In this document: piece after piece, positions 5,809-38,458 of the stretch | Numbering within the stretch: the first letter of the stretch is position 1 | How the letters are laid out: every line of letters begins with the position of its first letter | DNA from: an uncultured Granulosicoccaceae bacterium | Lineage (GTDB): Bacteria; Pseudomonadota; Gammaproteobacteria; Granulosicoccales; Granulosicoccaceae | Length of the DNA: 39,148 nt | Assembly (NCBI GenBank): GCA_938035945.1 | Contig: CALHOU010000066.1 | Coordinates: forward strand, 1-39,148 | Reading direction: 5' to 3' | Notes under the pieces: model-generated | The model's input: the letters and a program-made list of their open reading frames with translations, nothing else | The model's database searches: none | What the model was told of the DNA's origin: nothing | Made by a program: the position numbers and the translations under genes

Positions 5809-6458
5809 GCAATCAATCAAAAGGCAATTCAGAGTTGGGCGCACGAGATGATCGTTGGTATTTAAACATTATGTCGCCTAACACCAAAGGGGATAAGTTT
5901 GCGTGGTTAGATCCAACGTCTATCTATATAAATGCAAAAGCGTTTCAAGATTTACTCGATGACTTGGATACAGATCTAAAATCCGTGGAATTTGATGTTG
6001 TGGCAGGCCTTGATGCGATGGGCTTTGTATTAGGGGCTGGATTGGCTACCCGTCGTAATGTGGGCTTTTTGCCCATACGCAAGGCCGGTAAACTTTGTGT
6101 GGAAACCGACAGCGTCGAATTTGGGAACTATTCTGGCCGAGTGCAAAATATGGAAATGAGATTGCCTGCGTTTCCTAAAGGTACGCGTGTATTGCTGGCA
6201 GATCAGTGGGTGGAGACCGGAGGCACAATGGATGGGGCAATTCGATTAGTAGAACAACAAAACGGTGTCGTGGCTGGTATGGCAGCAATTGCTATCGAGG
6301 AAAACGAACGCACTCTCGGCTATCGTAAAAGCTACCCGTGTGCTTCCGCAGTAATGCCGGGTTCCCGGTGGCAGGCGCAATGCAATGCGCAATTTCTAAA
6401 GAGTTTTAATGCGTACGACCCTGCAAACACGTTTCCTAATGCTGGACGAGTGGTATAG
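5805..6458 (+). CDS. Adenine phosphoribosyltransferase-like protein
   Basis: Type I phosphoribosyltransferase, 217 aa, probably joining a nucleobase to PRPP or doing a related base exchange. DVVAGLDAMGFVLGAGLA (residues 64-81) and VGFLPIRKAGKL match the Apt fold closely. The PRPP loop is VLLADQWVETGGTMDGAI (129-146). Where Apt normally has two adjacent acids (DD) this protein has D133-Q134, an unusual change at a diphosphate/metal position. It is longer than typical Apt (about 180 aa), with extra N-terminal residues. It is translationally coupled to the BtpA-like gene. Adenine as substrate is a guess from similarity. Confidence 0.75.
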   Translation: MSNQSKGNSELGARDDRWYLNIMSPNTKGDKFAWLDPTSIYINAKAFQDLLDDLDTDLKSVEFDVVAGLDAMGFVLGAGLATRRNVGFLPIRKAGKLCVETDSVEFGNYSGRVQNMEMRLPAFPKGTRVLLADQWVETGGTMDGAIRLVEQQNGVVAGMAAIAIEENERTLGYRKSYPCASAVMPGSRWQAQCNAQFLKSFNAYDPANTFPNAGRVV

Positions 6459-16015: not shown

Positions 16016-16033
16016 CATTTAGTTGCGTAGCCG

Positions 16034-17272
16034 ATGAATGCGTCATGGACGCCCAATAGCACGCTTGTTGCTGACGGACAGCAGCTGGAATACGCCTGCT
16101 ATGGACCGCCACCTCAAGAAGCACCAACCATAGTTCTGTTGCACGAGGGCTTGGGCTGCATAGCATTGTGGCGTGATCTACCGCAAAAGCTTGCGCAAGC
16201 CACAGGTTTTGGCGTATTGGTATACTCTCGAGCCGGTTATGGCCAGTCAGAACCAGTTCAATTACCGCGCCCCCTCAATTACATGACGCACGAAGCGCGA
16301 ATGGTACTCCCAGATGTATTAGCCGCTGTTGCCATAGAATCTTGCATACTGGTAGGCCATAGCGATGGTGCGAGCATCGCCGCTATTTATGGCGGTAGTG
16401 ATTTTCGTCCCACTGCTTCAGGTCTCGTTCTGATCGCACCACATTTTTTCACCGAAGCGATTGGCTTGCAAGAAATAGCAAGCGCAAAAGCTGCGTTCGA
16501 TACGGGTGATCTTCGAGCACGTTTGGCGAAGTACCATAACGATCCCGACAATGCTTTTCGCGGGTGGAATGATGCTTGGCTAAACCCTGATTTCAAAGCA
16601 TGGAATATCGAATCTATGTTGAACAGCATAACTACACCCATACTCGCTATCCAAGGGCGCGAAGATCCTTACGGCTCGCTCAAACAAATTGAGGCAATAA
16701 CTAAACGAATAGAATCGACTTTAACTCTGGTAATTGACTCGTGTAAGCACGCTCCGCACATAGAGCACGAAGAAATTGTGGTAACAACAATTGCCGACTT
16801 CTGTACGGATGTGGTCTCACGTTCAGATTTCACGACACGAAATGCTGTCAACAATAAAAGTATCGTTTACCCCGATCACGCGTATGTGCCAGGCCAGAAT
16901 GAAAGGCACCCTGATGACTTATTTGATACGGTAAAGCGATCTGTGTCTACGAATCTAAGCGCTAAGCAACTCAGTGAAACCGAGGCATTTATAACCGGAT
17001 TGGCGTTTTTAAAAAATGGTTATTACTGGGAATCGCATGAAGTATTTGAGGTTGTGTGGATGGCGTTGCCCGAAGCTAGTGCAGAAAAACGGTTTGTTCA
17101 GTGCTTAATTCAACTCGCTAATGCTCGCCTTAAACTGAAAATGGATAAGCCTAAGGCTGCGCAGCGGCTTGTGGGACTATGTCGTGAACTACTGCCAGAA
17201 GATCAAGCTACTCAGCTTTTGGGTATTGAAATTCAGTTGGTCAGTTATTGGATTGAGCAGTTAGAAAAATGA
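16034..17272 (+). CDS. Alpha/beta-hydrolase fused to a DUF309 domain
   Basis: Protein of 412 aa with two parts. Residues 1-260 are an alpha/beta-hydrolase: oxyanion region LLHEGLGCIALW, nucleophile S110 in LVGHSDGAS, acid D211 in QGREDPYG and base H239 in CKHAPHIEH. After a linker, residues about 285-410 match DUF309, with YYWESHEVFEVVW (H335, E336, E339, W342) and a helical remainder. Hydrolases are found in other benzoyl-CoA box clusters and have been proposed to act on a lactone or CoA-thioester side product; the DUF309 role is unknown. The two halves are in one uninterrupted frame. It lies in the ligase operon, followed by the boxC promoter region. Confidence 0.85.
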   Translation: MNASWTPNSTLVADGQQLEYACYGPPPQEAPTIVLLHEGLGCIALWRDLPQKLAQATGFGVLVYSRAGYGQSEPVQLPRPLNYMTHEARMVLPDVLAAVAIESCILVGHSDGASIAAIYGGSDFRPTASGLVLIAPHFFTEAIGLQEIASAKAAFDTGDLRARLAKYHNDPDNAFRGWNDAWLNPDFKAWNIESMLNSITTPILAIQGREDPYGSLKQIEAITKRIESTLTLVIDSCKHAPHIEHEEIVVTTIADFCTDVVSRSDFTTRNAVNNKSIVYPDHAYVPGQNERHPDDLFDTVKRSVSTNLSAKQLSETEAFITGLAFLKNGYYWESHEVFEVVWMALPEASAEKRFVQCLIQLANARLKLKMDKPKAAQRLVGLCRELLPEDQATQLLGIEIQLVSYWIEQLEK

Positions 17273-17290
17273 GTGTATATTACGTTATAA

Positions 17291-17368
17291 TGCGCAAAAT
17301 ATAGATATACAACCAAATAAACGCAGTAAATCTCCTTAAAATTCAATATTTTTGCTATATTGTGCGTA
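17291..17368. promoter_or_regulatory. Paired inverted 14-mers upstream of boxC (candidate BoxR operator)
   Basis: TGCGCAAAATATAG at 17291-17304 and CTATATTGTGCGTA at 17355-17368 are inverted copies with two mismatches, 64 bases apart centre to centre, in the AT-rich gap before boxC. The second copy includes a TATATT that could serve as a -10 box, so binding there would block transcription. BzdR, the studied relative of BoxR, binds TGCA-containing repeats with palindromic flanks at its promoter; here the core is TGCG. Assignment to BoxR is inference. Confidence 0.5.
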
Positions 17369-17434
17369 ACTCATTTGCCCGTTAGATTTTTTCGATACTG
17401 GCTCGTCCGTCTGCGTCTAAGCTTCGAGGCCCAC

Positions 17435-19093
17435 ATGTCCGCACCCATAGATTTTCGAGTTGACGCCACTGCCTACCGTCATTGGCAAGTGGAATACGAC
17501 GGAGCAGTAGCAACGTTGAGCATGAATGTCGACGAATCGGGCGGACTCTTTGAAGGCTATGAATTAAAACTCAACTCTTATGATTTAGGCGTTGATATCG
17601 AATTAAACGATATTGTTCAACGCATGCGCTTCGAACACCCCGAAGTAAAAGTCGTTGTGTTGCGTTCTGGTAAAGACAATGTATTTTGCGCTGGAGCAAA
17701 TATCCGCATGCTCGGTGGCGCTGAGCACAGCCACAAAGTTAACTTCTGCAAGTTCACTAACGAAACCCGAAATGCCTTTGAAGCCGCAGCGGTTGATAGT
17801 GGACAGCAGTACATTGCAGCAGTAAAAGGCGCTTGTGCTGGTGGAGGTTATGAACTTGCCTTAGCCTGTAATTACATCATGCTCACCGATGACAGTACGT
17901 CAGCCGTTGGTTTGCCTGAAGTTCCGTTGCTTGCCGTTTTACCGGGTACGGGTGGTCTTACACGCATAACTGATAAACGTAAAGTGCGACGTGACCTGGC
18001 AGATATTTTCTGTTCGATTGAAGAAGGTGTGAAAGGACAACGCGCTAAGGATTGGAAGCTGGTTGATGAAGTTGTGTCCAATTCAACATTCGATGAAACG
18101 GTTCGCGAACGAGCAACAATATTTGCATCGAGCTCAAATAAACCAGATGTCGAATCAGGCATACGATTAAAAAAACTGGAACGCAATATCACAGAAAATA
18201 ATGTGTCTTGGTCAACTATCAATGTTGAAATCGATAGAGCAGGCCGCAAAGCCACATTCCATTTAAAAGGTCCGACTGAAGCTGCACCAAGTTCAATGGA
18301 AACATTTCAGGCGCAAAGTGATCAGGCGTATCTATTGCGATTATGTCGCGAACTTGAAGATGCCATCTTGCATATGCGTTTTAACGAGATGGATATTGGT
18401 TTGTGGGTGTTTAGCACTCAGGGCGATGCTAAGCTCCTTGCAGAACACGAATCACTACTTAGCGAAAATGCTGAGCATTGGCTTGCCAATGAGGTTCGAC
18501 AATACTGGAAAAGAACGCTAAAGCGTTTGGATGTCACATCACGGTCGCTTGTTGCATTGGTTGAACACGGTTCATGCTATGCGGGTATTTTAGCCGAAAT
18601 TCTGTTCGCCGTAGATCGAACCTACATGATGGAAGATGAGTTTGAAGACGATGATCGATCGCTAGCAACCATCACCCTAACGGATGCTAACTTTGGTCCA
18701 TTTCCCATGGCAAATGAACTGACTCGTTTGCAAACTCGCTTTATCGGCGAGCCCGAGCTGGTTGAATCAGCCAGCGCGCACAAAGGTGCTCAAATAGATG
18801 CCGCTAAGGCACACGAACTTGGGCTAGTCACCATTATTCTAGATGACATAGATTGGGAAGATGAGATTCGAATATTCATGGAAGAGCGTGCCTCTTTTAG
18901 TCCGGATGCTTTGACCGGTATGGAAGCGAACTTGCGTTTTGCAGGCCCAGAGACCATGGAAACGCGAATTTTTGGTCGGCTCACCGCTTGGCAAAACTGG
19001 ATATTTAATCGGCCTAATGCGGTCGGCAGCGAAGGCGCGCTGCAACGTTATGGCACCGGTGTGCGTGGCAACTTCGATTTCGAACGCGTTTAA
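17435..19093 (+). CDS. boxC: BoxC, benzoyl-CoA-dihydrodiol lyase
   Basis: Ring-opening enzyme of aerobic benzoyl-CoA degradation: converts the 2,3-epoxide/dihydrodiol CoA ester to 3,4-dehydroadipyl-CoA semialdehyde and formate. It is 552 aa, as usual for BoxC. The ATG at 17435 is chosen over an open frame from 17360, because GAGG is placed six bases before it and the upstream residues look noncoding. The N-terminal half has the crotonase fold: VFCAGANIRMLGG (oxyanion) and CAGGGYELALACNYIM, then GLPEVPLLAVLPGTGGLTR. The C-terminal half is a second, degenerate crotonase-like domain (LVALVEHGSCYAGILAEILF). It is followed by boxB 35 bases on. Confidence 0.95.
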   Translation: MSAPIDFRVDATAYRHWQVEYDGAVATLSMNVDESGGLFEGYELKLNSYDLGVDIELNDIVQRMRFEHPEVKVVVLRSGKDNVFCAGANIRMLGGAEHSHKVNFCKFTNETRNAFEAAAVDSGQQYIAAVKGACAGGGYELALACNYIMLTDDSTSAVGLPEVPLLAVLPGTGGLTRITDKRKVRRDLADIFCSIEEGVKGQRAKDWKLVDEVVSNSTFDETVRERATIFASSSNKPDVESGIRLKKLERNITENNVSWSTINVEIDRAGRKATFHLKGPTEAAPSSMETFQAQSDQAYLLRLCRELEDAILHMRFNEMDIGLWVFSTQGDAKLLAEHESLLSENAEHWLANEVRQYWKRTLKRLDVTSRSLVALVEHGSCYAGILAEILFAVDRTYMMEDEFEDDDRSLATITLTDANFGPFPMANELTRLQTRFIGEPELVESASAHKGAQIDAAKAHELGLVTIILDDIDWEDEIRIFMEERASFSPDALTGMEANLRFAGPETMETRIFGRLTAWQNWIFNRPNAVGSEGALQRYGTGVRGNFDFERV

Positions 19094-19128
19094 GCCCACT
19101 TATTAATACAGACTCAAGGACAATTCAC

Positions 19129-20580
19129 ATGGCTAGCACATTAGACGTAAGCTACGACACGCGCATCCCCAATAATGTTGGTTTAGGTCAAGACCGAAAA
19201 GTTCTAAAAGCACTCGAGAAGTGGCACCCGGGGTACATTGATTGGTGGAATAAATTAATCCCGCAAAACTTCCAGAACTCGATGGTTTATTTGCGCACCG
19301 CTGTCAGCGTTGACCCGAAAGGTTGGACAAAATTTGATTACGTAAAAATGCCTGAATACCGTTGGGGTGTGTTGCTGGCACCGCAAGTAGAAGAACGCAC
19401 TATTCCATTTGGTGAGCATAAAGGAAAGCCTGCTTGGCAGGAAGTGCCTGGCGAATACCGCAATATGCTTAAACGCCTCATCGTCATTCAAGGTGATACC
19501 GAACCTGGCTCGGTAGAACAGCAACGTTTTTTAGGACTAACTGCGCCGTCACTTTATGATTTACGCAATCTATTTCAGGTTAACGTGGAAGAAGGTCGTC
19601 ATTTGTGGGCAATGGTCTATCTGCTGCAAAAGTATTTTGGCAAGGATGGTCGAGAAGAAGCAGATGACTTATTACGACGCTCGTCCGGTTCGGACGAAGC
19701 ACCGCGCATGTTAGGTGCATTCAATGAAGAAACACCCGATTGGCTATCGTTTTTTATGTTTACATACTTCACCGATCGCGACGGCAAGATGCAACTTGAA
19801 TCCTTGGCACAATCAGGCTTTGACCCTTTAAGTCGAACTTGCCGATTTATGATTACTGAAGAAGCGCACCACATGTTCGTCGGTGAAACAGGTGTTGGCC
19901 GAGTCGTTCAAGCCACGCTAGACGCGATGAACAAGGCAGGCATAAGCGATCCAAACGACATTGCTAACGTGCGAGATTTGGGTGTGATTGATCTACCCAC
20001 TATTCAAAAGAAATTAAACTTGCACTACACATTGTCGCTCGATTTATTTGGTCAGGAAGTTTCAACCAATGCAGCGAACGCATTTAATGCCGGTATTAAA
20101 GGGCGTTTTATGGAACATCGTATCAAAGATGATCATCAGCTCACGAATGATAGTTACACGGTCAAAAACATTGCCGATGGAAAAATTGTTGAAGAAGAAG
20201 TCCCCGCTTTAACGGCGGTCAATATGCGATTGCGTGATGACTATATCAGGGACGCCTCTGGCGGTGTTGGTCGTTGGAACAAGGCGATTAAAAAAGCTGG
20301 TTTCGATTTTCAGCTTACTGTACCGCATGAGGCCTTTCATCGTCAGATTGGGGTATTCGCATCCATTAAAGCTGACCCCAACGGTAACATCATCACGAAT
20401 GATCAATGGGAAGCGGGTAAAAACGAATGGTTACCAACACTTGAGGATGGCACGTTTATTCAGTCGTTGATGAAGCCATGCTATGAACCAGGCCAGTATG
20501 CCAGTTGGATTGCTGCGCCTAAGGTGGGAATTGACAATAAACCGGGTGACTTTGAATTCGTTAAGTTACATATGGCGTAG
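19129..20580 (+). CDS. boxB: BoxB, benzoyl-CoA 2,3-epoxidase oxygenase subunit
   Basis: Diiron oxygenase component that epoxidises the ring of benzoyl-CoA using O2 and electrons from BoxA. It is 483 aa, slightly longer than the about 475 aa reference. The two ExxH diiron motifs are visible: E155-x-x-H158 in VEEGRHLWAMVY and E245-x-x-H248 in TEEAHHMFVGETG. The N-terminus keeps the family's IPNNVGL and WWNKLIPQNFQNS segments. AAGGA lies nine bases before the ATG. It lies between boxC and boxA on the same strand with short gaps, so these are co-transcribed. Confidence 0.96.
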   Translation: MASTLDVSYDTRIPNNVGLGQDRKVLKALEKWHPGYIDWWNKLIPQNFQNSMVYLRTAVSVDPKGWTKFDYVKMPEYRWGVLLAPQVEERTIPFGEHKGKPAWQEVPGEYRNMLKRLIVIQGDTEPGSVEQQRFLGLTAPSLYDLRNLFQVNVEEGRHLWAMVYLLQKYFGKDGREEADDLLRRSSGSDEAPRMLGAFNEETPDWLSFFMFTYFTDRDGKMQLESLAQSGFDPLSRTCRFMITEEAHHMFVGETGVGRVVQATLDAMNKAGISDPNDIANVRDLGVIDLPTIQKKLNLHYTLSLDLFGQEVSTNAANAFNAGIKGRFMEHRIKDDHQLTNDSYTVKNIADGKIVEEEVPALTAVNMRLRDDYIRDASGGVGRWNKAIKKAGFDFQLTVPHEAFHRQIGVFASIKADPNGNIITNDQWEAGKNEWLPTLEDGTFIQSLMKPCYEPGQYASWIAAPKVGIDNKPGDFEFVKLHMA

Positions 20581-20599
20581 GGCGAACTAGAGCTACCTA

Positions 20600-21787
20600 A
20601 TGAATCAACCCATCAAACAGCACCTTATCGACCCGGAAATTTGTATTCGCTGCTATACCTGCGAAAACACATGCCCGATTCAAGCAATCGAGCACAATGA
20701 AGACAATGTGGTTGTGGATGCAAGTAAATGTAATTTCTGTATGGATTGCATCCCAGTTTGCCCAACAGGATCTATCGACGAATGGCGAGTGGTGCAAACG
20801 CCATATTCACTGGAATCACAATTTGAATGGGAAGAACTACCTGAACAAGAAGCTCTGTCGGTAGACGCAACTTCAAACGAGAGCGTGGACGATGACCCTA
20901 TAGCGGCGCTACTCGCTGAGGCCCACAAAGGCGCAGGCGGGAAAGCACACGCACCCATAACAGCATCAAAACCGACGATCAATCTATACAATCTAATCAA
21001 TCCTGTAGAAGCCGTTGTTCAGGGAAACTACCGTCTTACCGATAGCACGAGCGACACCGATGTGCGCCATATTATTCTGGATTTTCAGGGACACCCATTT
21101 CCAGTGCTTGAGGGCCAATCGATAGGTGTGATTGCGCCCGGCTTGGATGACAATCAATCAGCGCATTTACCACGCTTATATTCGGTTTCTAGTCCCCGCG
21201 ATGGTGAACGGCCAGGTTTTCATAATGTGTCGCTAACCGTTAAGCGTGATGAAGGAGGCGTTTGCTCGAATTATCTTTGCGATTTAAGTAAAGGGGATAA
21301 TGTGAGCGTAACAGGACCGTTTGGGTCGACCTTTCTTATGCCCACAGCCCCTGATGCGCGATTATTAATGATCTGTACGGGTACGGGTTCTGCACCTATG
21401 CGTGCATTCACCATGGCCAGAGAACGAACCGTAGGCGCACAAGAGGGAGGCATGGTGATGTTCTTCGGTGCACGCACGCCGGATGCATTGCCGTATTTTG
21501 GTCCGTTAAAAAAACTACCGGATAAATTGCTGCAAAAACACTTAGTGTTTAGTCGTTGCGCTACTGCAGAAAAAGAGTACGTGCAAGACAGGATGCGTGC
21601 AGAGAGTCAATTAGTCGCATCCATGTTGCAGGATAACAATACGCATATTTATATTTGTGGTTTGCGTGATATGGAGCAGGGCGTTGAAGACGCTTTGCAC
21701 AGCATAGCTCAATCTTTTGGTGGCGATTGGCTCAAGCTACGTAATGACATGCGCGAAGCTGGCCGCTACCATGTTGAAACGTACTAG
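20600..21787 (+). CDS. boxA: BoxA, benzoyl-CoA epoxidase reductase subunit
   Basis: NADPH-dependent flavoprotein that supplies electrons to BoxB. It is 395 aa. Two [4Fe-4S] ferredoxin motifs are at the N-terminus: C15-C18-C21-C25 (CIRCYTCENTC) and C44-C47-C50-C54 (CNFCMDCIPVC). A ferredoxin-NADP reductase module follows: FAD-binding RLYSVSSPRDG, NADP-binding LLMICTGTGSAPMRAF, and a C-terminal Tyr in the reductase style (YHVETY). It starts 19 bases after the boxB stop. Confidence 0.96.
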   Translation: MNQPIKQHLIDPEICIRCYTCENTCPIQAIEHNEDNVVVDASKCNFCMDCIPVCPTGSIDEWRVVQTPYSLESQFEWEELPEQEALSVDATSNESVDDDPIAALLAEAHKGAGGKAHAPITASKPTINLYNLINPVEAVVQGNYRLTDSTSDTDVRHIILDFQGHPFPVLEGQSIGVIAPGLDDNQSAHLPRLYSVSSPRDGERPGFHNVSLTVKRDEGGVCSNYLCDLSKGDNVSVTGPFGSTFLMPTAPDARLLMICTGTGSAPMRAFTMARERTVGAQEGGMVMFFGARTPDALPYFGPLKKLPDKLLQKHLVFSRCATAEKEYVQDRMRAESQLVASMLQDNNTHIYICGLRDMEQGVEDALHSIAQSFGGDWLKLRNDMREAGRYHVETY

Positions 21788-21813
21788 CTTGTGTAAGCGA
21801 TGCGAGCATTCCA

Positions 21814-22707
21814 ATGACCATGTCTAAGGATACAAAAATCGACATACTGGATGAGTCGATGAGATCGCTCATCAATCTAGTGGGCATTCGAGTACTTGAA
21901 GCGCGAAAAGCAAAAAGTCTATCGCGCCGGCAACTATCAGAAATTTCTGGCGTGTCCCAGCGCTACCTCGTGCAACTCGAAGGTGGGGAAGGCAATATAT
22001 CAATCGGCCTGCTACATCGCATTTCGATAGCGCTTGAGCATCCGATTGAATGGCTAGTCCGGTCCGATGACGCGTTCAGTGAAGACCTCGACCAACTTAT
22101 TGTGCGATATCAAAACGCAGATGCATCCACCCGCGAACAGGTGCGGCGATTGCTTGAACCGGAAAAGCCACTACAAGACAAAATGCAGCGCATAGGTCTA
22201 ATTGGATTAAGAGGCGCAGGTAAATCGACACTGGGAGCACTTCTGGGCGAAAAGCTAAACATTCCGTTTATTGAGCTCAACCAAGAAATACAACAAAACA
22301 TCGGTATGCCCATTTCTGATGTGATTGCAATGTATGGTACTGACGGTTTTCGGAAACTGGAAGCTAACACCTTGCAACACGTAATATCAACACATGAGCG
22401 TGTTGTATTGGCCGTAGCTGGCGGTGTTGTAGAAGATGAAAGCACGTTCACCGAATTGTTGGCACGTTTCAACACCGTTTGGTTACAGGCATCTCCTATG
22501 GAGCATATGGAACGTGTGCAAGCGCAGGGGGATTTTCGGCCGATGGCTGATAATCCGCAAGCCATGGATCAACTGCGTGAAATCTTAAATGCCAGAACTC
22601 CACGCTATGCAAAAGCAGAACTCCACGTCGACACAAGCGGTAAATCCGTACACGACGCACTAAGCGATTTGCTTGCACTGATCAGTTCGCAGAATATCTA
22701 TAACTAA
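21814..22707 (+). CDS. boxR: BoxR/BzdR-type regulator (XRE helix-turn-helix fused to shikimate-kinase-like domain)
   Basis: Transcriptional repressor of 297 aa for benzoyl-CoA degradation; in BzdR the kinase-like domain senses benzoyl-CoA and releases DNA. Residues about 20-82 are an XRE helix-turn-helix (SRRQLSEISGVSQRYLVQLE). Residues about 126-290 resemble shikimate kinase, with the P-loop GLRGAGKST (131-139) and VLAVAGGVVED. A second ATG lies six bases in, so the start could be residue 3. It is inside the operon between boxA and the FadB-like gene. Candidate binding sites lie upstream of boxC. Confidence 0.94.
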   Translation: MTMSKDTKIDILDESMRSLINLVGIRVLEARKAKSLSRRQLSEISGVSQRYLVQLEGGEGNISIGLLHRISIALEHPIEWLVRSDDAFSEDLDQLIVRYQNADASTREQVRRLLEPEKPLQDKMQRIGLIGLRGAGKSTLGALLGEKLNIPFIELNQEIQQNIGMPISDVIAMYGTDGFRKLEANTLQHVISTHERVVLAVAGGVVEDESTFTELLARFNTVWLQASPMEHMERVQAQGDFRPMADNPQAMDQLREILNARTPRYAKAELHVDTSGKSVHDALSDLLALISSQNIYN

Positions 22708-30029: not shown

Positions 30030-31025
30030 ATGAACAAAAAAATTGCATCCGCTTTAGTTGGCGCTGCTGCGCTAACGCTGTCAGCGGCAACACTTGCAGC
30101 ACCTGCAGTAATTTATGACTTGGGTGGTAAATTCGATAAGTCATTCAACGAGTCTGCCTACAACGGCGCTACGCGCTGGGCCGAAGAAACCGGTGGTAAG
30201 TTTGCCGAAGTTGAGCTGCAATCCGACGCACAACGTGAGCAAGCACTGCGTCGATTCGCAGAGTCAGGCGCTAACCCTATTGTTATGGCTGGCTTTGCGT
30301 TCGCTTCGGCATTAGGTGAAGTGTCAGCTGATTACCCAGATACAAAATTCGTCATCATCGATATGGTTGTTGACCAACCCAATGTGCGTTCAATCGTATT
30401 CAATGAACACGAAGGTTCTTATCTTGTTGGCATGATGGCAGCAATGGCATCGAAGACCAACACGGTTTCGTTTGTTGGCGGCATGGACATTCCATTAATC
30501 CGTAAATTTGGCTGTGGCTATGCTCAAGGTGCGCGAGCTATTAGTGCAGACGTAACTGTTATTGCAAACATGACCGGAACAACAGGTGCTGCGTGGAACG
30601 ATCCTGTAAAAGGTTCTGAGTTAACGATCGCGCAAATCAGTCAAGGTTCTGATGTTGTATTTGCTGCAGCCGGTGGTACAGGACTTGGTGTGCTACAAAC
30701 TGCAGCCGATAAAGGTATTCTATCTATCGGTGTTGATGCGAATCAAAACTACCTACACCCGGGCAAGGTTCTAACCTCAATGCTTAAGCGGGTTGACAAT
30801 GCTGTGTATGATTCTTTCATGAATGGTGAGAATGTTGAGCCTGGCATTAACGCTATGGGTCTGGAAAACGGTGGTGTAGGCTTTGCACTGGATGAGCACA
30901 ACGAAGCTCTTGTTAGCGATGAAATGAAAGCAAAGGTTGAAGAAGCCATCGCAATGATTGCATCAGGCGAGCTTAAAGTTCACGACTACACTAGCGATGA
31001 AACTTGCCCAGCGATTCAATTCTAA
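30030..31025 (+). CDS. BMP-family periplasmic nucleoside-type receptor
   Basis: Solute receptor of 331 aa in the basic-membrane-protein (BMP/PnrA) family, whose known members bind purine nucleosides. It has a Sec signal peptide MNKKIASALVGAAALTLSAA with cleavage after TLAA; there is no lipobox Cys, so it is soluble in the periplasm. Family motifs are IYDLGGKFDKSFNESAYNGA, SIVFNEHEGSYLVGMMAAM, VSFVGGMDIPLIRKFGCGY and VIFAAAGGTG-like VVFAAAGGTGLGVLQ. GGAGA lies before the ATG. It heads the import and SAH/purine operon and is followed by a hairpin and then the ATPase. Confidence 0.9.
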   Translation: MNKKIASALVGAAALTLSAATLAAPAVIYDLGGKFDKSFNESAYNGATRWAEETGGKFAEVELQSDAQREQALRRFAESGANPIVMAGFAFASALGEVSADYPDTKFVIIDMVVDQPNVRSIVFNEHEGSYLVGMMAAMASKTNTVSFVGGMDIPLIRKFGCGYAQGARAISADVTVIANMTGTTGAAWNDPVKGSELTIAQISQGSDVVFAAAGGTGLGVLQTAADKGILSIGVDANQNYLHPGKVLTSMLKRVDNAVYDSFMNGENVEPGINAMGLENGGVGFALDEHNEALVSDEMKAKVEEAIAMIASGELKVHDYTSDETCPAIQF

Positions 31026-31049
31026 AGCTAGCTGTACTTTGTAAATAAC

Positions 31050-31087
31050 AGGCTATGTCACGGTTGTGGCATAGCCTTATTTATTTG
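31050..31087 (+). terminator. Hairpin after the BMP receptor gene
   Basis: AGGCTATGTCAC (31050-31061) pairs with GTGGCATAGCCT (31066-31077) around a GGTT loop, 12 pairs with one G-T, followed by an interrupted T-run (TATTTATTT). It lies 25 bases after the receptor stop and 50 bases before the ATPase start, and likely acts as a leaky terminator. Confidence 0.75.
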
Positions 31088-31127
31088 GGCCTTTCAATTT
31101 AAGTCTTAAATATTTCACTGGTTAACT

Positions 31128-32663
31128 ATGACTACTGCTGCGCCAGCCATCGAGCTTGTTGGTATTTCTAAAGCGTTCGGTTCCGTTCAAGCCAACAAAG
31201 ATATTTCTATTCGAGTCATGCCGGGCACCATCCACGGCATCATTGGGGAGAACGGGGCGGGTAAATCGACGCTTATGTCGATCCTCTATGGGTTTTATAA
31301 AGCCGACGCTGGTGAGGTCTTCATTGGCGGAAAAAAAACCGCTATTCCAGATAGCCAAGCGGCCATTGACGCCGGTATTGGTATGGTCTTCCAGCATTTC
31401 AAATTAGTGGATAACTTTACTGTGCTTGAAAACGTGGTTTTGGGAGCCGAAGAGGGCTTTATGCTAGGCACATCCATATCCAAAGCGCGGCGTGTACTTA
31501 AATCCTTATCCGAAGACTATGGCCTGAATGTTGAACCCGATGCAAAAATAGAAGACATTGGGGTAGGCATGCAACAACGTGTAGAAATCCTTAAAGCCTT
31601 GTATAGACAAGCTGATATTCTCATATTAGATGAACCCACAGGAACACTAACGCCTGCCGAGGCTGATCAGCTTTTTAGAATATTAGATCGTCTCAAAAAC
31701 GAAGGCAAAACAATTATATTAATCACGCATAAGCTGCGCGAAATAATGGATGTCACTGACACCGTTAGCGTTATGCGCGCTGGTGAAATGACCGCTACGG
31801 TAAAAACAGCTGAGGTAACACCTGCAGAGCTTGCTGAGCTAATGGTCGGTCGCAAAGTGCGTTTAACCGTTGCAAAGAAAGACATAAGCGTTGGTGAAAA
31901 GATTCTCGAAGTTAAGGATTTAAGCGTTAAAGACATCAACGGTGTTGAGCGGTTAAAAGGTGCAAGCTTTGATGTGCGAGCGGGTGAAATTCTCGGCATT
32001 GCAGGCGTTGCTGGTAACGGGCAGTCAGAATTGCTCGAAGCTTTGGGCGGTTATCAAAAAGCCACAGGGTCAGTCACCTACAAAGGTGCTGCGATGGACT
32101 TATCGGGTCTTGTGTCCAATGGTCAGGATCGTCGCAGCAATGGCATTGCCCACGTACCCGAAGATCGACAATCCGAAGGTCTGATCATGGAATTTATGGC
32201 CTGGGAAAATGCGGTTTTTGGTTATCACCTCGACCCTGAATTTCGTAAAGGTTGGCTCACCGACAACGCAGCTATGAAAACCGATGCGGCCGGCAAGATG
32301 GAACGTTTCGATGTGCGACCTCCCGACCCACTCTTAAAAGCCAAAAGTTTCTCGGGCGGTAATCAGCAAAAAATCGTGTTAGCACGAGAATTTGAACGCA
32401 GCCCTGATTTACTCCTCATTGGCCAACCTACCCGGGGTGTAGATATTGGCGCTATCGAGTTCATACATCAAAGCATCGTCGAGTTACGTGATCAAGGTAA
32501 GGCAATCTTGCTGGTATCAGTTGAACTGGACGAAATACTGGCTTTGAGTGATCGCATTGCGGTTATGTTTGATGGACGCATTATGGGTGAACGGCGCCCT
32601 TCAGAAACAGATGAGAGTGAACTCGGTTTGATGATGGCCGGTATGACGAAGGATGTTGCCTAA
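31128..32663 (+). CDS. Nucleoside-type ABC importer ATPase (two ABC domains)
   Basis: Energising subunit of the BMP importer, 511 aa with two tandem ATPase domains as in RbsA/NupA-type proteins. Domain 1: Walker A GENGAGKST (40-48), the family's modified signature VGMQQRVEILK and Walker B ILILDEPTGTLTP. Domain 2: degenerate Walker A GVAGNGQSELL, signature FSGGNQQKIVLAREF and degenerate Walker B LLLIGQPTRGVDIGA, which is usual for this group. The TAA overlaps the following permease ATG by one base. No clear ribosome-binding site precedes its ATG. Confidence 0.93.
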   Translation: MTTAAPAIELVGISKAFGSVQANKDISIRVMPGTIHGIIGENGAGKSTLMSILYGFYKADAGEVFIGGKKTAIPDSQAAIDAGIGMVFQHFKLVDNFTVLENVVLGAEEGFMLGTSISKARRVLKSLSEDYGLNVEPDAKIEDIGVGMQQRVEILKALYRQADILILDEPTGTLTPAEADQLFRILDRLKNEGKTIILITHKLREIMDVTDTVSVMRAGEMTATVKTAEVTPAELAELMVGRKVRLTVAKKDISVGEKILEVKDLSVKDINGVERLKGASFDVRAGEILGIAGVAGNGQSELLEALGGYQKATGSVTYKGAAMDLSGLVSNGQDRRSNGIAHVPEDRQSEGLIMEFMAWENAVFGYHLDPEFRKGWLTDNAAMKTDAAGKMERFDVRPPDPLLKAKSFSGGNQQKIVLAREFERSPDLLLIGQPTRGVDIGAIEFIHQSIVELRDQGKAILLVSVELDEILALSDRIAVMFDGRIMGERRPSETDESELGLMMAGMTKDVA

Positions 32664-33766
32664 TGAATGAGTTACCTCGTTGGGCGGAAATTATTCTGGT
32701 CCCACTTATAAGTCTGTTGTTGGCCGCCGTGTTGTCGGCCTTGGTCATATTGGCCATCGGCGAGAACCCGATCAGTGCGTTGCAATTGATGGTTCAGGGC
32801 GCTTTGGGCTCGACCTATGGTTGGGGCTATACGCTTTATTATGCAACCAATTTTATTTTTACAGGCTTAGCCGTTGCTATCGCGTTTCACGCACGGTTGT
32901 TTAACATTGGTGGCGAAGGTCAAGCGACCTTAGGTGGTTTAGGTGTTGCGCTGGTTTGTGTTTATATACCTTGGCCGCATTGGTCACTGGCCTTAATCGG
33001 GGCCATGGTGGGCGCAGCTGTACTGGGTGCGGCTTGGGCGGCTATACCTGCGTTTCTTCAAGCCAGGCGCGGTAGTCATATTGTTATAACAACCATCATG
33101 TTTAATTTTATCGCCGCAGCCTTGTTGAACTATCTACTAATTGGCTTGTTAAAACCCAAAGGTTCCATGGAGCCGGCCACTGCCAAGTTTGCCGAATCCA
33201 CACACCTGCCTTCGTTTCAAGACATGTTTTCAACAGCCGACAACGTGCTGTTTCGCGGTGCACCGGCAAACGTGACGTTCTTTGTTGCAACGCTTGCCTG
33301 CATACTTGTTTGGTTGCTCATTTGGCATACCCGGCTCGGTTATGAAATCCGCTCGTTTGGTCATTCTGACTCTGCCGCCAAGTACGCAGGCATAAGCCCA
33401 ACAAAAATCATTATGATCACGATGATGATCTCCGGTGCACTTGCCGGACTAATGGCAATCAACAATGTAATGGGAGAAGCAGAGCGCTTAATCCTTGGTT
33501 CTGTCGAAGGGGCTGGGTTTATTGGTATCGCTGTCGCATTGATGGGGCGCAGCCACCCTTTCGGCATATTCATCGCTGCTATATTGTTTGGTTTCTTATA
33601 CCAAGGCGGTGCGGAGCTTGCGCTCTGGACATCCATTCCGCGTGAACTTATTGTGGTCATACAGGCGTTGGTTATTTTGTTTACCGGTGCATTGGATAAC
33701 ATGGTGCGTATGCCCCTGCAAAAACTTTTTTCATTGTTCAAACGAACACCTGTGTCAGAGGTATAA
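32663..33766 (+). CDS. Nucleoside-type ABC importer permease 1
   Basis: Inner-membrane permease of the BMP importer, 367 aa, with about nine hydrophobic segments. Family motifs are FIFTGLAVAIAFHARLFNIG with GGEGQATLGGLGVAL, then RRGSHIVITTIMFNFIAAAL and YAGISPTKIIMITMMISGALAG. It starts inside the ATPase stop codon (TAATG), showing coupling. YufP/NupP-type proteins are the closest named relatives I recognise. The next permease follows three bases after the stop. Confidence 0.92.
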   Translation: MNELPRWAEIILVPLISLLLAAVLSALVILAIGENPISALQLMVQGALGSTYGWGYTLYYATNFIFTGLAVAIAFHARLFNIGGEGQATLGGLGVALVCVYIPWPHWSLALIGAMVGAAVLGAAWAAIPAFLQARRGSHIVITTIMFNFIAAALLNYLLIGLLKPKGSMEPATAKFAESTHLPSFQDMFSTADNVLFRGAPANVTFFVATLACILVWLLIWHTRLGYEIRSFGHSDSAAKYAGISPTKIIMITMMISGALAGLMAINNVMGEAERLILGSVEGAGFIGIAVALMGRSHPFGIFIAAILFGFLYQGGAELALWTSIPRELIVVIQALVILFTGALDNMVRMPLQKLFSLFKRTPVSEV

Positions 33767-33769
33767 ACA

Positions 33770-34738
33770 GTGGACTTACTGACTTTACTTTTGATTTTAG
33801 ATTCAACCATTCGATTGGCCACGCCGCTATTACTGGCTTGTCTTGCCGGGCTTTATTCCGAACGCGCTGGCATATTCGACATAGGCTTGGAAGGGAAAAT
33901 GCTAGCCGCTGCTTTCTTTTCAGGTGCAGTGGCCTATACAACCGGTTCTGCGTGGCTAGGATTGCTTGCTGGCATTGGTGCTTCGTTAGTTTTATCAGCC
34001 GTTCACGGTATTGCGTCGATTACCTTTCGCGGTAATCAACTCATTTCTGGTGTTGCCATCAACTTTCTCGCAGCAGGGCTTACGGTTGTTATCGCACAAA
34101 GCTGGTTTAAGCAGGGAGGAAGAACGCCACAGCTAGTGGGTGATGCACGGTTTGAGCCTATAACCTTGCCATTTGCTGATGCGGTGAAAGATATTCCCGT
34201 GTTTGGTGTTGTTTATAACGAGCTTATCTCAGGTCACACCAGCATTGTGTACATCGCCTTATTGCTGGTGCCGTTGACCTGGATCTTGCTATACCGAACG
34301 CGGTTTGGGTTGCGATTGCGGGCGGTGGGCGAAAACCCAGCATCAGTGGATACCGCCGGTATATCCGTTGTACGGCTTCGTTATATTGCGGTACTTATTT
34401 GTGGCGTGTTATGCGGTCTTGCTGGTGCCTATCTAGCCACTGCTCTGCAAGCTGGATTTGTTAAAGACATGAGTGCGGGTCGCGGCTTTATCGCATTGGC
34501 CGCGCTAATATTTGCAAAATGGCGTCCTTGGCAAGCATTGTTCGCGTGTTTGTTGTTCGGCTTTTTACAGGCAATGGCCTTGCGACCAGATGTGTTAGAA
34601 CAGTATTTAGGCTTTAAAGTGAATGCACAATTGCTTGATGCTCTGCCTTACATATTAACGGTGGTTATCCTTGCAGGCTTTGTTGGCAAAGCGATACCGC
34701 CAAAAGCTGGTGGTGAACCGTACGTCAAAGAGCGCTAG
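33770..34738 (+). CDS. Nucleoside-type ABC importer permease 2
   Basis: Second permease of the BMP importer, 322 aa, starting at a GTG with AGAGG about eight bases before it. Family motifs are RLATPLLLACLAGLYSERAG, FDIGLEGKMLAAAFFSGAVA, RGNQLISGVAINFLAAGLTV and LRAVGENPASVDTAGISV. About eight membrane segments are expected. The AhcY-like gene begins six bases after its stop, tying the enzyme to the importer. Confidence 0.92.
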   Translation: MDLLTLLLILDSTIRLATPLLLACLAGLYSERAGIFDIGLEGKMLAAAFFSGAVAYTTGSAWLGLLAGIGASLVLSAVHGIASITFRGNQLISGVAINFLAAGLTVVIAQSWFKQGGRTPQLVGDARFEPITLPFADAVKDIPVFGVVYNELISGHTSIVYIALLLVPLTWILLYRTRFGLRLRAVGENPASVDTAGISVVRLRYIAVLICGVLCGLAGAYLATALQAGFVKDMSAGRGFIALAALIFAKWRPWQALFACLLFGFLQAMALRPDVLEQYLGFKVNAQLLDALPYILTVVILAGFVGKAIPPKAGGEPYVKER

Positions 34739-34744
34739 CCAAAG

Positions 34745-36010
34745 ATGAACCCTGTTGGCCACAACACCAACGCGCACGCAGAACTCGTTAAAGAAGGTAT
34801 AGACCGAATCAACTGGGTCGATCGCCATTCGCCTGTGCTCAATGGTTTGGTTCGAACAGCCATGCGCGACGGCTCACTTGAAGGCGTCAAAATAGCGGTC
34901 GTTGTGCACCTGGAGGCAAAGACGGCGTTTCTTGCATCGATTTTGGCTGATGCTGGGGCTGACGTCATAGCGGCTGGTAGTAACCCTCTGACTACCAACG
35001 GATCTGTTGTAGAAGCCTTGCGAGATCGAGGCATGATTGTGGTATCTGAACCCGATGGCAATCATGAGTCCTGGGAAAAAGAATTGCTTGCGGCAGCTGA
35101 TCTTGAACCTGAATACATCATTGATGATGGTGCTGAGCTAACCATGCGGATTGGCATGCATCGGCCAGAAATTTTCAAAAAACTCAAAGGCGTATCGGAA
35201 GAAACTACCACAGGCACAGCAAGGCTGTACGCGATGGAAGCAGCCGGGCTGTTACCGTTTCCAGCACTCACAGCCAATGATGCTCGATGCAAACACCTGT
35301 TTGATAATCGATACGGAACAGGTCAAACAACGGTTCAAGCTGTTTTACGTCTAACCAATAGAAAAATGGCCGGCGCCAAAGTTGCCATTATCGGATACGG
35401 CTATGTTGGACGTGGCATCGCCGAATACGCAAAGAAATTAGGTGCACAAGTCTTTGTGGCAGAGACCGACCCTGTGCGTGCATTGGAAGCACACTTTGAC
35501 GGTATGTTTGTCGGTAAATCAACTGACATTGTTCGTGATGCTTCAATCGTTATTACAGCCACAGGCGGTATGCGCGCATTGGGTAGACCCGAATTTGAGG
35601 TGCTAAAGCATGATGCTGTGTTGGCCAACGCAGGTCACCACGATTTAGAAGTCGATGTCGATACCTTGGCTGAGATGGCCGCAAACGTGATCGAAAACAG
35701 AGCGCAAATATCAACGTATGAGTTAGGTAAGCGAGCTATTCATGTTTTATCTGGCGGTGCGTTGGTCAACATAGCTGGTGGTAGTGGACACCCTGTAGAG
35801 ATTATGGATCTTACCTTCGCAGTACAAGGACTCGGCGCGCACCATTTGGTTAACACCGATTTAAAACCGGGCGTTCACGTTTTACCAAAACATGTGGATG
35901 ATCAAATAGCCGCGGCAAAATTAAGCAGCATGGGTATTCACCTGGAACCACCACGGCCTGAGCAGGAAGACGACTTTAAAGATTGGCTCACAGGGATTCA
36001 ATCAACATGA
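34745..36010 (+). CDS. ahcY: S-adenosylhomocysteine hydrolase-like enzyme (GTGQ type)
   Basis: NAD-dependent hydrolase expected to split S-adenosyl- (or S-inosyl-) homocysteine into nucleoside and homocysteine. It is 421 aa. The catalytic set is intact when set against human SAHH: H55, D127/D128 (IIDDGAELT), E153 (SEETTTG), K183 and D187 (KHLFDN), H298 (NAGHHD) and H349 (SGHP). The NAD loop is GYGYVGRG (217-224). It has YGTGQT where the usual proteobacterial/eukaryotic enzyme has YGCRES, a form I associate with archaeal and Thermotoga enzymes, some of which prefer the inosyl substrate. It follows the permease by six bases and overlaps its own paralogue by ATGA. It may not be the cell's housekeeping SAHH. 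Confidence 0.88.
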   Translation: MNPVGHNTNAHAELVKEGIDRINWVDRHSPVLNGLVRTAMRDGSLEGVKIAVVVHLEAKTAFLASILADAGADVIAAGSNPLTTNGSVVEALRDRGMIVVSEPDGNHESWEKELLAAADLEPEYIIDDGAELTMRIGMHRPEIFKKLKGVSEETTTGTARLYAMEAAGLLPFPALTANDARCKHLFDNRYGTGQTTVQAVLRLTNRKMAGAKVAIIGYGYVGRGIAEYAKKLGAQVFVAETDPVRALEAHFDGMFVGKSTDIVRDASIVITATGGMRALGRPEFEVLKHDAVLANAGHHDLEVDVDTLAEMAANVIENRAQISTYELGKRAIHVLSGGALVNIAGGSGHPVEIMDLTFAVQGLGAHHLVNTDLKPGVHVLPKHVDDQIAAAKLSSMGIHLEPPRPEQEDDFKDWLTGIQST

Positions 36011-37176
36011 GCTTGTCGGCGCATAACAGTACGCTAGCACAGGAGGGGCGACAAAAGATTCAGTGGGCATCCGCATCAATGCCGATGCTGAACGATGCGT
36101 CTTTGCGTCTCAAAAATTCAGCTGCTGTTAATGGGTTAAAAGTAGGCGTATGTTTGCCATTGGATGCAAAAGTTGCAAACCTTGCTTTGGCATTAGCGGC
36201 ATCTGGCGCACACGTTTCATGTTGCTCACTTGTTCAAGGGGCCGATATAAGCATTGTTCAGGCCTTACATTCAAACGATATACCCGTTTTTGTGGGAGCA
36301 GATGCAGCGCTAGATGAATTTATTGCTTTAAAACACAACTTCATTCTAGACCATGACGCCCGTTGCTTAACATTGGCCCATCTAAAACGTTCAGAATTTA
36401 TGGAACAACTGACTGGGGCAACTGAAATCACTAAAACCGGTATCGACAGACTGAGTGGTTTGAATAATATTTCTGTACCCATTGTTGATTTGCACAGCAC
36501 ACGAATAAATCAGCTGATTAACAATACCACGGGCACTGGGCAGTCAGCGGTGATGGCGATACTGGATATAACAAATTTGCAAATCGCAGGCAGACGCGCG
36601 CTTGTTATTGGTTATGGCCGAGTCGGTAAAGGTATAGCGGCACATGCGGCAGCAATGGGTGCGCGCGTGACGGTTGCGGAAAGTGAACCTGTAAAAGCAC
36701 TCGACGCTCATTACGATGGCCATAGTGTAAGCACCATCGAAAATGCCATAACGGATGCTGAACTTGTGTTTACAGCCTCAGGCGTACATGGCGTGCTCAA
36801 AGCCGAGCACATCGATGCCATGCGCCCGGGCGCTATACTTTGCGCATCAGGTCATGGGCAGGCTGAGCTACCGATGGAGCACCTGTTACAGGCTGTGCAT
36901 ATTGAATCGGTTAGAGCACACGTGACTAACTACCAGCTAGCAAATGGCAAAAATATACTACTCATTGCTGATGGTCATAATGTGAATATAACAGCAGGTG
37001 AGGGTAGTCCGATTGAGGTTGCGGATAAATTGATGGCCTTGCAGATAATCGCTCTAGAGCATCTTTTATCTAACGCACAGGTAGCCGGACTGTGCAACTT
37101 TCCCGAAAATGCTGAAAATCAGCTCGCACTTTCCTATTTAAACCACATTGGCGCAAACGTAGCCGCCAACTTATAG
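36007..37176 (+). CDS. Catalytically degenerate S-adenosylhomocysteine hydrolase paralogue
   Basis: Homologue of the preceding protein, 389 aa from the ATG at 36007, chosen because it overlaps the upstream TGA (ATGA); the open frame from 35983 adds eight residues. The NAD-binding part is preserved: LVIGYGRVGKGIAAHAAAMG (GxGxxG at 202-207), TGTGQSAV and one GH (H283). Substrate and catalytic positions are changed: H55 to P51, E153 to I141, K183 to N168, D187 to N172 and H349 to S334. It is therefore unlikely to do the SAHH reaction. The frame is clean, so it is a maintained gene rather than a pseudogene. Possible roles are a hetero-oligomer partner or allosteric subunit of the active enzyme, an NAD-linked ligand sensor, or a new reaction. 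Confidence 0.85.
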   Translation: MSLSAHNSTLAQEGRQKIQWASASMPMLNDASLRLKNSAAVNGLKVGVCLPLDAKVANLALALAASGAHVSCCSLVQGADISIVQALHSNDIPVFVGADAALDEFIALKHNFILDHDARCLTLAHLKRSEFMEQLTGATEITKTGIDRLSGLNNISVPIVDLHSTRINQLINNTTGTGQSAVMAILDITNLQIAGRRALVIGYGRVGKGIAAHAAAMGARVTVAESEPVKALDAHYDGHSVSTIENAITDAELVFTASGVHGVLKAEHIDAMRPGAILCASGHGQAELPMEHLLQAVHIESVRAHVTNYQLANGKNILLIADGHNVNITAGEGSPIEVADKLMALQIIALEHLLSNAQVAGLCNFPENAENQLALSYLNHIGANVAANL

Positions 37177-37252: not shown

Positions 37253-38458
37253 ATGGAAGCTTATATTCTGGAATGGCTCAACCTGCTGGGGCGTTGGGTT
37301 CACTTGGTGGTTGGCATCGCTTGGATTGGTGCATCTTTTTACTTTGTCTGGCTCGACAACAGTCTCGAGGCGCCAAAGGTAGAAGACGATGTAGAGCGTG
37401 GTGTTGGCGGCGAAATATGGTCAGTGCATGGCGGTGGTTTTTATCACGCTCAAAAGTATAAAGTTGCACCGCCTAAACTACCTGAAAAACTGCATTGGTT
37501 TAAGTGGGAAGCCTATACCACTTGGATTACAGGGATGTTCCTGATGTGTCTGATGTATTGGTATCAAGCAGAGATTTATCTGATCGACCCGAATGTGATG
37601 ACCTTAAGCAAACCCGTTGCTGTCATTCTAGGCATGCTAACGATTGTGCTTGGCTGGATTGTGTACGATCAGTTGTGCAAGTCGCCGATCGGCAACGACG
37701 AAAATAAGCTAAGTTTGGTGATGCTGGTATTTGTTAGCGTGGCCGCGTATGTGTTGTGTCAAATCTTTAGTGGGCGAGGTGCCTATCTGCACTTTGGTGC
37801 CATGCTAGGTACCATCATGGTTGCGAATGTGGCGTTTGTGATTATGCCGGGCCAACGTGATCTTGTAGCGGCCAAGCAAGAGGGCCGCGCGCCTGATCCA
37901 ATCCACGGCATACTCGCTAAGCAACGATCGGTGCACAACACGTTTTTCACGCTACCGGTTTTGTTTGTGATGATAAGCAATCACTACGCAATGACCTGGG
38001 GCCATAAGTACAACTGGCTCATACTCATCGTGTTAACGATAGCCGGTGGCCTTATACGGGTGTTTTTCGTGCAACGCCATACCGGTAAACAAACACCCAT
38101 ACCTTTAATTATTGCAGGCTTTCTAATCATGGGTGTAGCCGCAGCCATTGCGCCAAAACCACTTGCGCCCGTTGTTAGTGATAACGGGCCAGTCACACCA
38201 GTCAACTTTGCCGATGTTCAGCAGGTAATGCAAGCGCGCTGTGTTGGTTGCCACGCCAAAGTACCCACGCAACCCGGCTTTTATTCAGCACCAAAAGGCA
38301 TTGCTCTAGAAAGCGCGGAAGACATAGTGAACTATGCGCAGACTATTCATCAACAGGTGGTTGTTACAAAAGCGATGCCGATTGGAAATTTAACCGGCAT
38401 TACTGATGATGAACGAGCACTTATAGACCAGTGGTTTCGATCAGGCGCTACTCAATAG
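37253..38458 (+). CDS. puuD: PuuD, membrane urate hydroxylase with cytochrome c domain
   Basis: Oxidises urate to 5-hydroxyisourate, passing electrons to a fused cytochrome c rather than making peroxide. It is 401 aa. The first 300 residues are a membrane domain with about eight segments (LLGRWVHLVVGIAWIGASFY, WEAYTTWITGMFLMCLMYWY, QRSVHNTFFTLPVLFVMISN). The C-terminal domain has the haem motif C330-V-G-C333-H334 and a likely axial Met in KAMPIGNLTGI. GAGG lies before the ATG. It follows the AhcY-like pair after 76 bases on the same strand and faces a class V aminotransferase, both consistent with purine ring degradation. Confidence 0.93.
   Translation: MEAYILEWLNLLGRWVHLVVGIAWIGASFYFVWLDNSLEAPKVEDDVERGVGGEIWSVHGGGFYHAQKYKVAPPKLPEKLHWFKWEAYTTWITGMFLMCLMYWYQAEIYLIDPNVMTLSKPVAVILGMLTIVLGWIVYDQLCKSPIGNDENKLSLVMLVFVSVAAYVLCQIFSGRGAYLHFGAMLGTIMVANVAFVIMPGQRDLVAAKQEGRAPDPIHGILAKQRSVHNTFFTLPVLFVMISNHYAMTWGHKYNWLILIVLTIAGGLIRVFFVQRHTGKQTPIPLIIAGFLIMGVAAAIAPKPLAPVVSDNGPVTPVNFADVQQVMQARCVGCHAKVPTQPGFYSAPKGIALESAEDIVNYAQTIHQQVVVTKAMPIGNLTGITDDERALIDQWFRSGATQ

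Follow-up and report, generated by a model that had tools for sequence, protein, structure and literature searches.

A paralogue lacking catalytic residues encoded directly behind an S-inosylhomocysteine-hydrolase-like enzyme in scattered bacterial genomes

Two SAHH homologues in a Granulosicoccaceae genome

The stretch analysed here, hereafter the window, comprises 39,148 nucleotides (nt) from an uncultured Granulosicoccaceae bacterium (contig CALHOU010000066.1, assembly GCA_938035945.1). It ends in a row of genes on one strand: a BMP-type ABC importer (30030-34738), two homologues of S-adenosylhomocysteine hydrolase (SAHH) that I call P1 and P2, and a protein with a urate oxidase N-terminal domain (Table 1). 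An earlier note on this DNA had paired a catalytically intact P1 with an active-site-dead P2 and had given their coordinates, strand and overlap correctly: the stop codon of P1 and the start codon of P2 share four nucleotides, ATGA. The start of P2 is taken here to be the ATG at 36007, the TTG at 35983 chosen by the open reading frame lister being judged mechanical.

Homology to SAHH is far above chance for both proteins, which share 32-33% identity with each other. In phmmer searches of the PDB, P1 reached an E-value of 2e-100 (its best matches include 5tov, 3x2e, 7r37 and 7r3a) and P2 one of 6e-66; for the Pfam family AdoHcyase_NAD the values were 1.4e-33 and 1e-35. Window P2 is predicted to adopt a complete SAHH fold (mean predicted local distance difference test score, pLDDT, 87.6), and its top Foldseek match is the T. 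maritima SAHH 3x2f (E-value 1.5e-36). Its alignment to SAHHs begins at about residue 11, and the model shows no additional N-terminal domain.

Catalytic residues were called from one alignment of 60 sequences, with positions mapped by motif and alignment to what I take to be the human SAHH numbering. Window P1 has H55, D128 (human D131), E153 (E156), K183 (K186), D187 (D190), H298 (H301) and H349 (H353), so that all seven positions checked are present, as the earlier note had said of the catalytic set. At the same seven positions window P2 has P, H, I, N, N, H and S. The five substitutions reported previously (at H55, E156, K186, D190 and H353) are borne out by the alignment, D131 is additionally replaced by His, and H301 alone is matched; the loop GYGRVGKG, which would bind nicotinamide adenine dinucleotide (NAD), is present as described. 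With six of seven positions substituted, window P2 lacks the catalytic residues of an active SAHH or S-inosylhomocysteine hydrolase and, judged by its residue content, cannot be an SAHH.

Database labels would nonetheless make P2 an ordinary active SAHH. Full-length P2s pass the cut-off of 275 bits of the NCBIfam adenosylhomocysteinase model NF004005 (window 303, L061:9962-11197 414, L049:11206-12441 434; the shrunken P2 of L044 scores 99), and the P2 of L061, a plasmid labelled Roseateles, is annotated as adenosylhomocysteinase. Against this stand the six substituted positions in window P2, of which the Lys to Asn change is the one present in the rat mutant K185N (structure 1xwf, also returned by Foldseek). 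Changes of such catalytic residues cripple SAHH catalysis. That P2 is an ordinary SAHH is thus very unlikely, to the point of being negligible, and the naming of full-length P2s as adenosylhomocysteinase is likely a misannotation of a pseudoenzyme.

Table 1. Features of the window discussed in the text (aa, amino acids).
Feature	Position	Strand	Basis
BMP/PnrA-type substrate-binding protein of ABC importer	30030..31025	+	Pfam PF02608
ABC importer ATPase, two ABC domains	31128..32663	+	profile search
ABC importer permease	32663..33766	+	PF02653
ABC importer permease, ends 6 nt upstream of P1	33770..34738	+	PF02653
P1, intact SAHH-family enzyme, S-inosylhomocysteine-hydrolase-like, 421 aa	34745..36010	+	profile and phmmer searches, alignment
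P2, paralogue without catalytic residues, 389 aa, NAD loop GYGRVGKG	36007..37176	+	alignment, structure prediction
P2 linker helix GTGQSAVMAILDITNLQIAGR, residues 176-196, best conserved part of P2s including shrunken ones	36532..36594	+	
Urate oxidase N-terminal domain protein, CxxCH motif near C-terminus, downstream of P2; presumably PuuD-type by name	37253..38458	+	Pfam PF06181

Linkage, history and constraint of the pair

Scanning a species-genome collection with the P1 alignment, by way of two short peptide patterns from paired P1s, gave 22 loci, a biased sample and no census. The set of close P1 loci used below numbers 16, including the window and the Roseateles-labelled plasmid (organism unverified in the record). 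Their P1s are at least 62% identical to that of the window, the plasmid P1 being included through its position in the same clade. P2 is the next gene in all 16, which span gamma- and alphaproteobacteria, actinobacteria and the plasmid, and thus two phyla; L046 and L047 are near copies, so these are not 16 independent cases. No P2 was found by blastp at 1e-8 in any of seven distant P1-like loci (42-56% identity); L059, truncated where its stretch ends, is not among the seven. P1 and P2 overlap in 14 of 15 measured pairs, by exactly 4 nt in ten, and one pair has a 15-nt gap, all with starts as chosen by the open reading frame lister; L048, outside the 15, has a 4-nt overlap by arithmetic. The earlier expectation that P2 would neighbour P1 across relatives therefore held.

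The pair is rare and sporadic. Within the window's order, 5 of 48 genomes contain P1 and P2, adjacent in all five. Broad searches with P1 (E <= 1e-100), which scored only the best few first-look candidates per genome, found the pair in the window's own genome only, both among 369 genomes of its class and among 398 of its phylum. The same search returned 2 of 248 genomes for the family of Pseudooctadecabacter, both already in the locus set, and 1 of 248 for the order of the Microbacteriaceae genome, namely the centre genome itself. A genome-wide scan with P2 alone gave 13 pattern matches, none of them relatives.

In the tree, P2s form one clade (support 100/100) and paired P1s another (100/99), with several long P2 branches and a program warning. 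Mantel comparison of the P1 and P2 distance matrices gave r 0.39 for all 16 pairs (15 of 5000 permutations as high), 0.42 without the four shrunken members (20 of 5000), and 0.92 in eight pairs with what I call standard P2s (0 of 5000). The simplest history is a single divergence of P2, after which the pair was inherited and spread as a unit, with erosion of P2 following later in two lineages.

All seven catalytic residues are kept in the 16 paired P1 rows. Among P2s, H55 and H353 are absent from all 16 rows (with some doubt about these columns in the shrunken L043 and L044) and H301 from 14. The eight standard P2s (L041, L042, L046, L047, L048, L049, L051 and L061) share identical H55V, H301G and H353N replacements and retain D131, E156, K186, D190, the base-contacting E57/K59 pair and the NAD loop glycines. 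The four window-type P2s (window, L039, L040 and L060, from Granulosicoccaceae or the same family) have lost nearly all catalytic residues, with Pro at H55, Asn at D190 and a mixture elsewhere. The remaining four, from alphaproteobacteria (L043, L044, L045 and L050, with 276, 286, 375 and 358 aa), are strongly eroded or shrunken, and they are the 4 of 16 in which the NAD-loop columns checked are changed; even so, structure prediction gives the 286-aa P2 of L044 a confident fold (pLDDT 84.9), and this protein still matches SAHHs. The earlier suggestion that P2s keep the same substitutions thus fails, because H55 and H353 alone are lost throughout, and E156, K186 and D190 persist in half of the P2s.

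The standard group raises the possibility of altered chemistry, in which P2, with NAD, K186, D190 and E156, would oxidise or epimerise the 3'-OH of a nucleoside without H55-assisted 5' elimination. These 8 of 16 P2s retain those residues, having lost H55, the gate residue H301 and H353, and their identical Val, Gly and Asn replacements look selected rather than like random decay. The remaining eight, that of the window among them, have differing residues in place of K186, D190 and E156, and in four the NAD loop is altered and the substrate domain reduced as well; all the same, the gene is still coupled to P1. Since the needed residues are missing from half of the P2s, altered chemistry cannot be a function common to all, and I consider it unlikely.

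P2 is under purifying selection, far from neutral, yet evolves faster than P1. In Nei-Gojobori counts on eleven chosen locus pairs, 6 of the 22 comparisons had synonymous change too great to correct. The closest pair, L046/L047 (synonymous divergence, dS, about 0.2; 0.19 for P2), gave a ratio of nonsynonymous to synonymous change (dN/dS) of 0.034 for P1 and 0.111 for P2; other P2 values, 0.09 to 0.38 at dS of about 1 to 4.4, are rough only. The earlier note had offered a dN/dS near 1 as a sign of relaxed selection, and the value in the closest P2 pair is far below it. With domain borders set by myself, mean identity within the substrate domain of P2 falls from 0.66 in the standard group to 0.46 in the window type and 0.24 in the shrunken members, and in the linker helix (motif GQSxVMAxLDITNLQIAG) it is 0.87, 0.79 and 0.69; the NAD domain has 0.64 and 0.65 in the standard and window-type groups. 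On these identities the erosion of P2 is concentrated in the substrate domain, and constraint has shifted.

A decaying duplicate, carried along as a mere passenger of the operon, would account for the rapid evolution of P2, its varied substitutions, the shrinkage in alphaproteobacteria and a premature stop in one relative. It fits poorly with open P2 frames of at least 276 aa in all 16 loci, with the low dN/dS of L046/L047, with an old origin common to two phyla, with the conserved overlap, and with a P2-specific linker helix retained even in shrunken members. I regard decay as distinctly improbable.

Function of P1 and the role of P2

Window P1 carries an HxExK motif at H55/E57/K59, as do all 23 P1 and P1-like rows; the 8 canonical AhcY rows have HxTxQ. 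HxExK homologues preferred S-inosylhomocysteine (SIH) and HxTxE/Q ones S-adenosylhomocysteine in PMC10978960. From this preference, with which gene context agrees in part, P1 most likely splits SIH, or a comparable inosine with a 5' substituent, into inosine and a thiol, the substrate being read from the motif; the earlier mention of SIH was apt. The C-terminus of P1 is short and without the Lys/Tyr tail, and archaeal enzymes with a short C-terminus are missing the contacts to the NAD of the neighbouring subunit (PMC10978960). The idea that NAD sites are shared between subunits, on which the earlier note had drawn, therefore applies less here. I set aside the idea that the C-terminal tail of P1 had changed with pairing, as the tail is likewise acidic in unpaired P1-like proteins of Acidimicrobiales.

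Of 15 pair genomes searched, 12 encode a canonical AhcY elsewhere, and because of this P1 looks like a scavenging enzyme rather than a housekeeping one. The three genomes in which canonical AhcY was not found are those of the window, G792 and Leucobacter soli; in the window's case the absence carries no interpretation, since the assembly is 86% complete and the 12 others have one. P1 would then be an additional SAHH-family enzyme whose task is to scavenge imported nucleosides. An amidohydrolase, a CUT1-type importer and a LacI regulator accompany the pair in 6 of 16 loci (L041, L046, L047, L048, L049 and L061), the amidohydrolase being distantly like nucleoside or base deaminases and scoring below every curated deaminase cut-off. 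An inosine-uridine nucleoside hydrolase occurs in four (downstream in L044 and L061, upstream past the LacI gene in L046 and L047), and the window's genome encodes three nucleoside hydrolases away from the pair. The BMP-type importer is found in two (window and L040; its permeases also in L039), and an amino-acid-type importer in L042. These counts are minima, as the fetched stretches vary in length and that of L060 begins inside P1. Among distant P1-like genes, those of Bacillota have an amidohydrolase for a neighbour (L056-L058) or follow a BMP importer (L054), and the Acidimicrobiales genes of L052 and L055 directly adjoin one for a purine nucleoside phosphorylase. Gln replaces E156 in three of the seven unpaired P1-like rows, all from Acidimicrobiales (L052:3282-4631, L053:209-1510 and L055:9875-11224).

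Known systems help to place P1. It resembles the archaeal-type SAHH/SIH hydrolases of P. furiosus, M. maripaludis and other species in its catalytic residues, HxExK and short C-terminus without the Lys/Tyr tail (PMC10978960), and the deaminase-like amidohydrolase near several pairs may be a further likeness. The archaeal enzymes solved in that source are homotetramers, whereas P1 has a dead paralogue next in line, is often found close to importers and mostly coexists with a canonical AhcY. Canonical bacterial AhcY shares the fold and NAD loop with P1 and P2 but differs in its HxTxQ motif, its KPDHYRY-type C-terminal tail and its separate locus in those 12 genomes. Searches of the open-licence PMC literature found no account of a dead SAHH partner in bacteria, or of an operon for it, nor was any found of a nucleoside scavenging set made up of importer, deaminase-like protein, SIH-hydrolase-like pair and nucleoside hydrolase.

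What, then, would P2 do? One answer is a free-standing sensor or regulator of the importer or of transcription, acting outside any P1 oligomer and kept in the operon by co-transcription. Standard P2s retain nucleoside- and NAD-contacting residues, and animal AHCYL1 has such extra roles according to PMC12955632. The importers (BMP, CUT1-type, amino-acid type) and the regulators (LacI, LysR, GntR) vary among loci, however, and P1 is the sole constant neighbour, which leaves free-standing regulation quite unlikely. Both it and the decaying passenger are less likely than a dead subunit.

I give somewhat better than even odds to a nucleoside-scavenging SIH hydrolase, P1, joined by a catalytically dead P2 subunit in a mixed SAHH-type oligomer. 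The constant adjacency to P1 despite varying importers and regulators, the coupled translation and the retained scaffold make this the best reading, in which the complex, its stoichiometry, the direction of regulation and the substrate would all be as proposed rather than observed. P2 would be translated in coupling with P1, would join it in, for example, a tetramer of two P1 and two P2, and would set the stability, domain motion or activity of P1. Half of the P2s keep hypoxanthine- and ribose-contacting residues and may sense a ligand there; in the window's lineage the pocket is eroded, and a scaffold role would be all that is left to P2. A stronger form, in which every catalytic SIH hydrolase subunit is paired with an obligatory dead one that serves as a hypoxanthine-nucleoside/NAD-binding sensor in standard lineages and as a scaffold of about 280 residues in others, is tentative and would be less probable than the general case. 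I also tried a charge-swap interface between Arg202 of P1 and Asp187 in the P2 linker helix, and dropped it because Arg202 is not fixed in paired P1s.

The heteromer or regulator proposal of the earlier note survives in its core: P2 is without the catalytic set, is under selection, follows P1 in every close locus and usually overlaps it, as expected. Three side claims do not, namely the constancy of the substitutions, the shared NAD sites and the absence of any described system like this. The last was too strong, since AHCYL1 and AHCYL2 are animal SAHH paralogues with substituted catalytic residues (PMC12955632) and AHCYL1 has been presented as a negative regulator of SAHH through heteromultimers (PMC7060199). 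P2 resembles these proteins, the IRBIT family, as an SAHH-fold paralogue with substituted catalytic residues and possible heteromers with a live enzyme. It differs in having no N-terminal IRBIT domain, in forming its own bacterial clade (the tree holds no animal sequences) and in the coupling of its translation to that of its partner. P1/P2 is a bacterial case in its own right, with an analogue in animal AHCY/AHCYL1.

A number of points weigh against the dead subunit. Gene coupling is no proof of contact between P1 and P2, so that the complex is an inference, and the animal precedent is itself disputed: PMC12955632 judges the evidence for AHCY/AHCYL1 heteromers weak and reports failed interaction tests. 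Because P2 evolves faster than P1 (mean identity 44% versus 69%; dN/dS about threefold that of P1 in L046/L047), part of its pattern is relaxed constraint. The NAD domain is down to 0.35 identity in shrunken P2s, and the P2 frame of a relative, G009 (L040; L034:6393-7646), is interrupted by an in-frame TAA some 25 codons short of the end of the homologous stretch. Correlation of P1 and P2 distances is weak outside the standard group. The sample, built on peptide patterns of paired P1s, favours the paired clade and contains the near copies L046 and L047. As to context, L043, L045, L050 and L051 have none of the searched neighbour families beside the pair, save a weak purine-phosphorylase match in L051, and the window pair adjoins neither a deaminase nor a nucleoside hydrolase.

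In animals, direct control of the live enzyme by dead SAHH paralogues is disputed (PMC12955632), and two coupled genes of environmental bacteria, which can be expressed jointly or singly, pose the question in a simpler form. Furthermore, the pair would trace the stepwise change of a pseudoenzyme subunit through time, with acid, gate and base-site residues lost first, then the pocket, then part of a domain, while coupling is kept.

Further SAHH-like families and other gene rows

One pair locus is unlike the others: in an uncultured Erythrobacter (L050:9992-12321) 3 nt separate the pair from a preceding AcnB-like gene, and a GntR/UTRA regulator stands between the pair and a nearby imidazolonepropionase (HutI) gene.

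Two further SAHH-like families with altered residues came to light. The first, a clade with support 100/99 and long branches, carries D131N and D190E (L062:9001-10149, L063:8965-10173, L064:9001-10164 and L071:3755-4933). On a Vibrio nigripulchritudo plasmid its gene stands between those of a nucleoside hydrolase and an adenosine deaminase, followed by a ribokinase, with a CNT nucleoside transporter nearby; it is possibly a second altered SAHH in nucleoside catabolism. The second, of 374-388 aa, occurs in the window's order (L067:3336-4460, L068:2779-3903, L069:169-1293 and L070:3150-4316) and keeps H55 and K186, with V, I/V, G, S and V at D131, E156, D190, H301 and H353.

Elsewhere in the window, positions 5047-6458 hold a weakly BtpA-like protein (below the Pfam cut-off) that overlaps a phosphoribosyltransferase-domain protein, beside a LysR regulator, possibly another base-salvage pair. 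A row at 14477-22707 encodes an AMP-binding ligase, an alpha/beta hydrolase, an enoyl-CoA hydratase-like protein, weakly PaaA/PaaC-like proteins, a ferredoxin-FAD/NAD reductase and an HTH-shikimate-kinase protein, and presumably resembles the aerobic benzoyl-CoA (box) pathway.

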